64,000 nucleotides of DNA from Natronosalvus rutilus (GTDB lineage: Archaea; Halobacteriota; Halobacteria; Halobacteriales; Natrialbaceae), in the NCBI RefSeq assembly GCF_024204665.1, contig NZ_CP100355.1, forward strand, positions 1,116,001 through 1,180,000, in the 5' to 3' direction. Positions within the stretch are counted from its first letter, which is position 1, and the number at the start of each line of letters is the position of its first letter. This document shows positions 7,000 to 8,847 of the stretch, piece after piece. The position numbers were made by a program, and so were the translations under genes. Under the pieces are notes generated by a model that saw only the letters and a program-made list of their open reading frames with translations, was not told the DNA's origin and did not search any database.

Positions 7000-7045
7000 G
7001 TAACGCACAGTAACGAACAGTATCGATCAGTAACGATAGTAACGA
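7000..7045. promoter_or_regulatory. Five phased GTAACG iterons
   Basis: The heptamer GTAACGA or a close variant begins at 7000, 7010, 7020 (GTATCGA), 7030 and 7039. The spacing is 9-10 bases, one helical turn, so all copies face the same side of the DNA. An inverted copy (CTGTTAC) follows at about 7051-7057. The array ends about 40 bases before the DMT transporter start, so it overlaps the expected promoter. Two more copies occur at 8016 and 8025, before the next gene. This arrangement is typical of a cooperative operator; the binding protein is unknown. Confidence 0.6.
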
Positions 7046-7083
7046 ATATACTGTTACCATCGTTGCCCGCCGTCCTCCGTTCG

Positions 7084-8010
7084 ATGCGAACTCACGCGGA
7101 TACGACGGAGACAGCAGGCGGCCTATCCGGATCGAAACGTACGCGAGCCGTCTTCGAAGCACTATTCGTGACTGTCCTCTGGTCGTCTTCGTACGTCCTC
7201 ATCAAAGTCGGCCTCGAGGAGATTCCGGCGGTGACGTTCGCAGGGTTGCGCTACGGCGTGGCGACGGTGGTTCTGGTTCCACTCTTTCTCCGCGGGGGCG
7301 GGCACCGATCCGTCCGACGGCTCGAGAGGCGAGAACTCGCCGTGTTGCTCGCCCTCGGGCTGTTCATGTACGCGATCACGCAAGGGGCGCAGTTCCTCGC
7401 GCTACAGTACCTGCGAGCGGCGACCGTCAGCCTCCTCCTGACGTTCACACCCGCGGTGGTTGCCCTGTGTAGTGTCCCGCTGCTCGGCGAGCGTGCCTCG
7501 CGACGGCAGTGGCTGTGGATGGCAGTCCTGTTCGTCGGCGTCGGGGTCTACTTCTACCCGTTCGACCTCGGCGTCCTCGCGCTGGTCGGCCTCGGTATCA
7601 TGGCCGTTGGGCTCCTCTCGAACGCCCTCGCGTCGATCCTCGGCCGATACGCGAATCGCGACGGAACGCTGTCGGCGCTCGGCGTAACGACGGTCAGCAT
7701 GGGGGTCGGATCGGCTCTACTCCTCGGGACGGGTATCGCCGTGCAGGGCCTCCCGTCGCTGAGCCTTCGGAGCTGGGCCATCGTCCTCTGGCTCGCGGTC
7801 GTCAACACGGCGTTCGCGTTCACCCTCTGGAACCGGACGTTACAGACGCTTACCGCGACGGAATCGAGCGTCATCAACAACACGATGCTCGTGCAGGTGG
7901 CGCTCCTCGGCTGGATCTTCCTCGGCGAGTCGCTCACGCTCACGGACGGTCTCGGCATGGCCGCAGTGCTGGCGGGCGCGTTGCTCGTCCAGGTCGCTGG
8001 GCGGCGGTAG
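7084..8010 (+). CDS. EamA-family drug/metabolite transporter
   Basis: A 308-residue inner-membrane protein with ten hydrophobic segments arranged as two EamA repeats. The first repeat starts EALFVTVLWSSSYVLIKVGL and the second near VGLLSNALASILGRYANRDG. This is the topology of DMT-superfamily exporters of metabolites or amino acids; the substrate cannot be inferred. The ATG at 7084 was preferred over a TTG at 7063 because the latter falls close behind the iteron array. The shared repeat motif before this and the following gene suggests joint regulation. Confidence 0.8.
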   Translation: MRTHADTTETAGGLSGSKRTRAVFEALFVTVLWSSSYVLIKVGLEEIPAVTFAGLRYGVATVVLVPLFLRGGGHRSVRRLERRELAVLLALGLFMYAITQGAQFLALQYLRAATVSLLLTFTPAVVALCSVPLLGERASRRQWLWMAVLFVGVGVYFYPFDLGVLALVGLGIMAVGLLSNALASILGRYANRDGTLSALGVTTVSMGVGSALLLGTGIAVQGLPSLSLRSWAIVLWLAVVNTAFAFTLWNRTLQTLTATESSVINNTMLVQVALLGWIFLGESLTLTDGLGMAAVLAGALLVQVAGRR

Positions 8011-8015
8011 TATTG

Positions 8016-8031
8016 GTAACGACGGTAACGG
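8016..8031. promoter_or_regulatory. Pair of GTAACG motifs before the regulator gene
   Basis: GTAACGA at 8016-8022 and GTAACGG at 8025-8031 lie nine bases apart in the 54-base gap between the DMT transporter and the HFX_2341-type regulator. They match the iterons at 7000-7045. This is consistent with the regulator, or another factor, binding both promoters. Confidence 0.4.
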
Positions 8032-8064
8032 ATTCCTTTTACTATTGGTCGTTCATGGCCACGT

Positions 8065-8847
8065 ATGAGCCGCGACTCGCCGGTGACCGACCGCGTTCAC
8101 GTCGTCCCGCTCGGCTTCGAGTACGCTCGCGTGAAAGAACCGATCCTGCGGTGGAAGGCCGATCGCGTCGTACCGATCGAGTACCGTGACAGCGACCGGG
8201 AGATTCCGTTCGTTCGAGCGCTCCTCGAAGAACTCGAGGCAAACGAGCGCATCACAGTCGACCGCCGCTCCTGTGACATCTTCGACCTGTACGACACGCT
8301 TGGGACGATTTCGGCAGCGATCGCGGACTACGCCGACGACGACGTCTTCGTCAACCTCTCCGCCGGGAGCAAGATCACCGCCATCGCGGGCATGATCGCC
8401 TGCATGGCGACCGGCGCACGGCCGATCTACGCCCGGCCGTCGTACGGCCCAGAGGCGTCGCGGATCCCCGAGGAACCGCTTCACGAGGAGGTGGCGGAAA
8501 TATTCGAACTACCAAGGTACCCCATCGAACGACCATCGGACGTTCACGTCGCGTTTCTGGCACACGTCGACGCGGAGACCGCGGAGACGGCCAGCGGGCG
8601 CTACCGCGGGGTAAGCAAGACAGACCTGATCGACTTCGCCCTCGAGTCGGCGTTCCCGTTCGTCGCGCGGTCCGAGGCGACGACGCGGAAGGGCTACTAT
8701 CGACTGCTGGATCGGCACGTCGTGAATCCCTTGCTGGAGAAGGGGTACTTCGAGGTCGATAAGGTCGGTCGCGAGAAGTACGTCACCCTCACCGAGGACG
8801 GACGGAACGTGCTTCGGGCGTTTCGATACGCCGCCGAAGAGGCCTGA
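8065..8847 (+). CDS. HFX_2341-type transcriptional regulator (DUF6293), CARF-like sensor plus winged helix
   Basis: A 260-residue two-domain protein. The N-terminal half (about 1-150) is Rossmann-like, with VHVVPLGFEY on the first strand and the glycine-rich turn VFVNLSAGSKITAIAGMIA, resembling the CARF/DUF6293 ligand pocket. The C-terminal half carries a winged helix (SKTDLIDFALESAFPF, then EKGYFEVDKVGREKYVTLTEDGRNVLRAF). Proteins of this type are annotated in haloarchaea as HFX_2341-family transcriptional regulators; the ligand is unknown. There is no CRISPR locus nearby. It lies 54 bases after the DMT exporter and shares an operator-like motif with it, so it may regulate that gene. Confidence 0.7.
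   Translation: MSRDSPVTDRVHVVPLGFEYARVKEPILRWKADRVVPIEYRDSDREIPFVRALLEELEANERITVDRRSCDIFDLYDTLGTISAAIADYADDDVFVNLSAGSKITAIAGMIACMATGARPIYARPSYGPEASRIPEEPLHEEVAEIFELPRYPIERPSDVHVAFLAHVDAETAETASGRYRGVSKTDLIDFALESAFPFVARSEATTRKGYYRLLDRHVVNPLLEKGYFEVDKVGREKYVTLTEDGRNVLRAFRYAAEEA

Follow-up and report, generated by a model that had tools for sequence, protein, structure and literature searches.

In a haloarchaeal genome of 4.31 Mb, an exporter gene and the regulator gene that follows it are both preceded by short GTAACG repeats. This raises the question of whether the repeats are a control site shared by the two genes and, if so, which kind of switch they would serve. The window, i.e., the whole stretch of DNA that was analysed, comprises 64 kb (positions 1116001-1180000 of contig C1), and the coordinates below refer to it unless a contig is named. 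Judged from the sequence comparisons that follow, the repeats are a conserved DNA control site common to the exporter and the adjoining regulator gene.

The repeats and the architecture of the locus

Four exact copies of GTAACG are found before the exporter (7000, 7010, 7030 and 7039), together with a copy at 7020 that reads GTATCG, one mismatch away, and a further GTAACG pair precedes the regulator gene (8016 and 8025). The original prediction had counted five copies with 9-10 base spacing before the exporter and two before the regulator gene; its coordinates and spacing were right and the regulator pair was confirmed, but one of the five is the degenerate copy. The steps from box to box are 10, 10, 10 and 9 bp before the exporter and 9 bp before the regulator. 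Across the window the hexamer alone shows no enrichment (36 occurrences against 30.1 expected). Its clustering carries the signal: four exact copies fall within 57 bp, whereas none of 200 Markov-1 simulations of the full 64 kb placed more than two that close together. Genome-wide, exact GTAACGN3GTAACG occurs in both promoters and in one coding microsatellite, and nowhere else. A wider regulon in this genome was considered and rejected, since the microsatellite accounts for the further exact pairs, and the one-mismatch matches checked lie mostly within ORFs. The microsatellite itself (G000:C2:75022-75072) is a nonanucleotide repeat, (GTAACGGCG)n, within an ORF; it mimics the operator spacing and resembles a coding repeat.

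The putative core operator of the exporter occupies 7030..7044 on the + strand and consists of boxes 7030-7035 and 7039-7044 (GTAACG-ATA-GTAACG), a direct repeat with a 9-bp step. A third box, GTTAC, absent from the original prediction, lies inverted at 7053..7057 (- strand), 14 bp from box 2, so that boxes 2 and 3 bracket an AT-rich putative TATA element at 7045-7052. The remaining upstream boxes (7000..7025, + strand) are GTAACG at 7000-7005 and 7010-7015 and the degenerate GTATCG at 7020-7025; these copies with 10-bp steps are limited to Natronosalvus rutilus and a 98%-identical sister genome (G006). The exporter gene itself spans 7084..8010 (+). Start codons are inferred ones throughout, and an exporter start at TTG 7063 was rejected in favour of ATG 7084 because the distance from the start of the core to an ATG is conserved, at 52-54 bp in most orthologues.

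The regulator gene (8065..8847, +) encodes an HFX_2341_N domain (~8092-8442) followed by a DUF6293_C winged helix (~8506-8823). Its putative operator at 8016..8030 (+) is again a 9-bp direct repeat, GTAACG-ACG-GTAACG, with its boxes 49 and 40 bp ahead of the ATG. From its sequence, TTTTACTA at 8037..8044 (+), about 25 bp before the regulator ATG, is a TATA-like element; together with 8025-8028 it forms GTAA-N10-TTAC, an arrangement found in several orthologues too. Regulator promoters reach a TTTWWW score of 4.9 (background, 4.1), while the exporter TATA does not exceed background and is weaker than that of the regulator.

The exporter and the regulator proteins

The exporter belongs to the EamA (DMT) family, with two stretches matching PF00892 (135.2 bits, E=2.3e-39); its matches to TIGR00950 and YedA are weak and below the cut-off. 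In the regulator, both domains score far above their cut-offs: PF19810 (HFX_2341_N) at the N terminus with 124.7 bits (E=3.6e-36; cut-off 30), and the winged helix PF22665 (DUF6293_C) at the C terminus with 105.8 bits (E=1.8e-30; cut-off 27). AlphaFold (AF2) predicts two domains with good confidence (pLDDT 89.6), and CARF proteins such as Csa3, Can2, Csm6 and Cam1 make up nearly all of the best 50 PDB matches listed by Foldseek, with Csa3 structures, both with and without cA4, among the leading ones. On this structural model, the regulator has a CARF Rossmann-like fold, and its description as CARF-like agrees with both the Pfam domains and the fold matches. Among solved structures, single-sequence searches with the exporter and with the regulator found no relatives, and a profile search returned weak matches only.

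The regulator had also been called an HFX_2341-type gene, which is correct for the HFX_2341_N/DUF6293_C family; it is not, however, an orthologue of HFX_2341 (Crr), as it scores 20.5 bits against the equivalog model NF051475, whose cut-off is 500. Its score against Csa3 (TIGR01884) is likewise low, at 23.5 bits for an NCBIfam cut-off of 60.2. Two more HFX_2341_N genes are present in the same genome (G000:C1:3323383 and G000:C1:920482). The latter (L003) reaches 572.6 bits against NF051475, above the cut-off, and is by sequence the likely Crr orthologue. Within the clade of exporter-associated regulators, 22 positions are nearly fixed and differ elsewhere in the DUF6293 family, including F18 and A21 of a GFEYAR motif, a pattern that would fit a distinct ligand.

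Conservation of the two-gene cassette and its operator

A search of 392 genomes, taken as a sample of the order, yielded 18 with a regulator match at E<=1e-60. In 14 of these 18, the match is full-length (~58-100% identity) and adjoins an exporter orthologue. Exporter orthologues occur in the same genomes as regulator orthologues of at least 58% identity (including G142), and the distances of the two proteins are correlated (Mantel r 0.82, with none of 2000 permutations as high). When the ORFs of the 14-kb neighbourhoods were clustered, exporter and regulator were the only genes common to most loci, which identifies the pair as a cassette sitting in many places; the neighbourhoods are otherwise unrelated. 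Decayed halves of the cassette were also encountered, namely broken regulators that lack exporter and operator (L037/L084) and a broken exporter that lacks regulator and operator (L118).

All 14 intact cassettes carry GTAACG-N3-GTAACG before the exporter with at most one mismatch, so the expectation that the motif would be conserved in close relatives was borne out. Across these 14 promoters, the box bases hold 1.0-1.6 bits each, against near 0 in the upstream flank. Autocorrelation of exporter promoters is dominated by a single peak, which falls at 9 bp (53 observed against 1.8 expected). DUF6293 regulators of 44-51% identity that stand without the exporter lack the core pair, as do the decayed loci L037/L084 and L118. 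In the nearer relatives, the inverted third box lies 23 bp from the start of the core; GTTAC is exact in seven of the 14 loci and degenerate in most others, with T, A and C kept. The long operator GTAACN4GTAACN9GTTAC occurs five times in the 392 genomes, each time before this exporter. Of the 14 regulator orthologues, 11 have one or more exact boxes in the promoter between -39 and -49, and the three cassettes in G109, G249 and G134 have no box before the regulator.

The boxes had been described as helically phased and lying on the same face of the DNA. This does not hold, since relatives conserve a 9-bp step, which falls short of a helical turn by about 50 degrees per box (~-50 degrees). Cooperative packing of the boxes along the DNA is nevertheless possible.

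Related operators beside other DUF6293 regulators

The prediction that the motif should recur beside other genes of the HFX_2341 family was examined with the pattern GATAGTAACG-N3-GTAACG in 323 haloarchaeal genomes, and recur it does. The pattern gave nine matches, and its reversed control none: three known cassettes, one partial cassette (L166) and five others. All six matches outside the 14 cassettes adjoin a regulator of the DUF6293 family, and beside each of the five non-cassette matches stands a different one. One match lies at the regulator's own start (L168), another immediately after the regulator gene and ahead of a small ORF (L169), and those in three further genomes (L172-L174) before a gene convergent with the regulator. 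The L168 operator (L168:1501-1519) is located between the DUF6293 gene and a divergent gene for an AGOG-type N-glycosylase/DNA lyase (PF09171). The convergent genes (L172:869-1453:-, L173:1567-2151:+ and L174:854-1453:-) encode uncharacterized proteins of 195-200 residues that begin with MGQR and have no Pfam match; relatives are found in L029-L033. The paralogue L001 in the genome under study has no MGQR-type neighbour.

Beyond exact matches, MGQR relatives beside other regulators of that clade are accompanied by TAGTAAC/TAGTATC arrays with peaks at 9, 18 and 27 bp. Clade B (L136-L156), whose regulators are ~40% identical to the cassette regulator, has GATACTA/TAGTATC arrays before the regulator's own start, with the same three peaks, and these extend to a few bases from the start codon. 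In five of the six clade B loci checked there is also a small divergent winged-helix gene (HTH_20/HVO_A0261_N-like), and the array could serve this gene instead of the DUF6293 gene. Arrays of TAGTA(A/T)C with a 9/18/27-bp periodicity are found in clades B and C of the family; background upstream regions have no such peaks. TAGTAWC is present in 10 of 13 exporter promoters, 15 of 19 clade B promoters and six of seven MGQR promoters, against three of 61 background regions. It is rare in the regulator promoters of clade A (2/13), whose GTAACG boxes are flanked by other bases.

The exporter clade forms a monophyletic group in the phylogenetic tree (SH-aLRT 100), and clade B is not its sister, so the common code either goes back to an early stage of the family or has more than one origin. 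No sister relationship links clades A, B and C, and in some of the intervening clades the regulator's own promoter has no array. The roles of the arrays across the family are read from position and periodicity. On these grounds, the DUF6293 regulators, a widespread haloarchaeal CARF-winged-helix family outside CRISPR, probably use one operator code: head-to-tail TAGTA(A/T)C boxes with an exact 9-bp step, placed at the regulator's own promoter and/or at one adjoining clade-specific target (the EamA exporter, a small winged-helix protein, or an uncharacterized protein of ~195 residues).

Proposed mechanism of regulation and alternatives

Given the co-inheritance of the regulator with the exporter, a regulator-exporter switch is the simplest reading of the cassette, and the original idea of a CARF-like protein controlling an exporter as an efflux switch gains support, at that level, from the shared conserved operator. 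The regulator would bind the tandem 9-bp boxes (GATAGTAACG core) at the exporter core promoter, as well as those at its own promoter. Binding of a small molecule in the CARF pocket, probably of the exporter substrate or a linked metabolite, would alter DNA binding or occupancy, and the levels of exporter and regulator would then track the need for efflux. Binding of the boxes by the regulator, ligand control and the sign of regulation are steps that we infer. On balance, the sequence data lean towards an efflux cassette of two genes that carries its own operator and acts as a ligand-controlled local switch, in which repression with ligand-induced release is slightly favoured over activation. 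Several findings count against this reading: three cassettes have no box ahead of the regulator, the third box is degenerate in about half of the loci, the clade B array may belong to the divergent winged-helix gene, and arrays are missing from regulator promoters in some clades that lie between A, B and C.

Repression is suggested by three observations: in half of the exporters the TATA region lies between boxes 2 and 3, the clade B arrays reach almost to the start codon, and repression is the main activity of HFX_2341 itself (PMC11434293). Against it stands the position of the universally kept exporter boxes, just upstream of the BRE/TATA region. The same operator and local switch could instead work with the regulator as an activator, where the ligand-bound protein upstream of the BRE recruits TFB/TBP, resulting in positive autoregulation and induction of the exporter. 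The box positions would suit this arrangement, as they match sites just upstream of BRE/TATA that are associated with activation by GvpE in haloarchaea (PMC8241225), and the site associated with the archaeal Csa3a (PMC8699464). Moreover, the exporter TATA is the weaker of the two, and conservation is higher for the boxes that precede the TATA region than for the one overlapping it. That overlap in half of the loci, the coverage of clade B promoters up to the start codon and the mostly repressing behaviour of the characterized family member all speak against activation, which we regard as a serious but less probable alternative to repression.

Two further explanations were considered. Another, unlinked transcription factor might occupy the boxes and control both genes, an option left some room by the fact that box binding by the regulator is predicted and by the second winged-helix gene adjoining the clade B arrays. 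Such a factor would not be expected to track the DUF6293 family as the motif does: every match outside the examined cassettes adjoins a DUF6293 gene (6/6, 323 genomes), and box and 9-bp step are common to three DUF6293 clades. We therefore hold this explanation to be improbable. Even less credit can be given to a CRISPR-linked switch in which the regulator, like Csa3, responds to type III cyclic oligoadenylates. The CARF fold, the Foldseek matches to cA4/cA6-binding proteins and the weak Csa3 profile matches point in that direction, but none of the 14 cassette genomes has a match to the Cas10 palm domain, which makes type III CRISPR signalling unlikely, and no gene other than exporter and regulator recurs beside most cassettes.

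Significance and comparison with known systems

In the literature searched, no published binding site for the DUF6293 family was found; the sole paper found to name DUF6293 or HFX_2341 identified none and could not distinguish direct targets from indirect ones. A shared operator would name the likely direct targets of many DUF6293 members and supplies short DNAs for binding assays, and the pairing of a CARF-like sensor with a single exporter offers a short route to the ligand. It also suggests that CARF-type sensing is used beyond antiviral defence in archaea and, if the family code is true, CARF-like sensing would be a general local metabolite switch in these organisms.

The closest characterized relative is HFX_2341/Crr of Haloferax mediterranei, which, like the cassette regulator, combines an HFX_2341_N CARF-like domain with a DNA-binding C-terminal domain (PMC11434293). 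Crr is described as repressing genes globally, and no binding site is known for it (PMC11434293), whereas the cassette regulator would have an almost private operator at two promoters. Csa3a of Sulfolobales (PDB 2WTE, 6W11, 6WXQ) shares the CARF and winged-helix fold and a site near BRE/TATA, and binds DNA cooperatively (PMC8699464). However, the motif reported to be associated with Csa3a is palindromic (TCCCN8GGGA) and linked to CRISPR loci, in contrast to the tandem 9-bp direct repeats described here. In addition, the 14 cassette genomes have no Cas10 palm-domain match, and the predicted target is an exporter.

Short head-to-tail boxes at a fixed step are also seen in the met-box operators of MetJ, a likeness that suggests cooperative arrays. 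MetJ is a ribbon-helix-helix protein that recognizes 8-bp palindromic boxes, unlike the winged helix and 9-bp boxes of the present system. In bacteria, local pairs of a one-component regulator and an adjacent EamA/DMT metabolite exporter are known. The haloarchaeal cassette differs from them in its CARF-like sensor, its archaeal core promoter and its iterated 9-bp operator.
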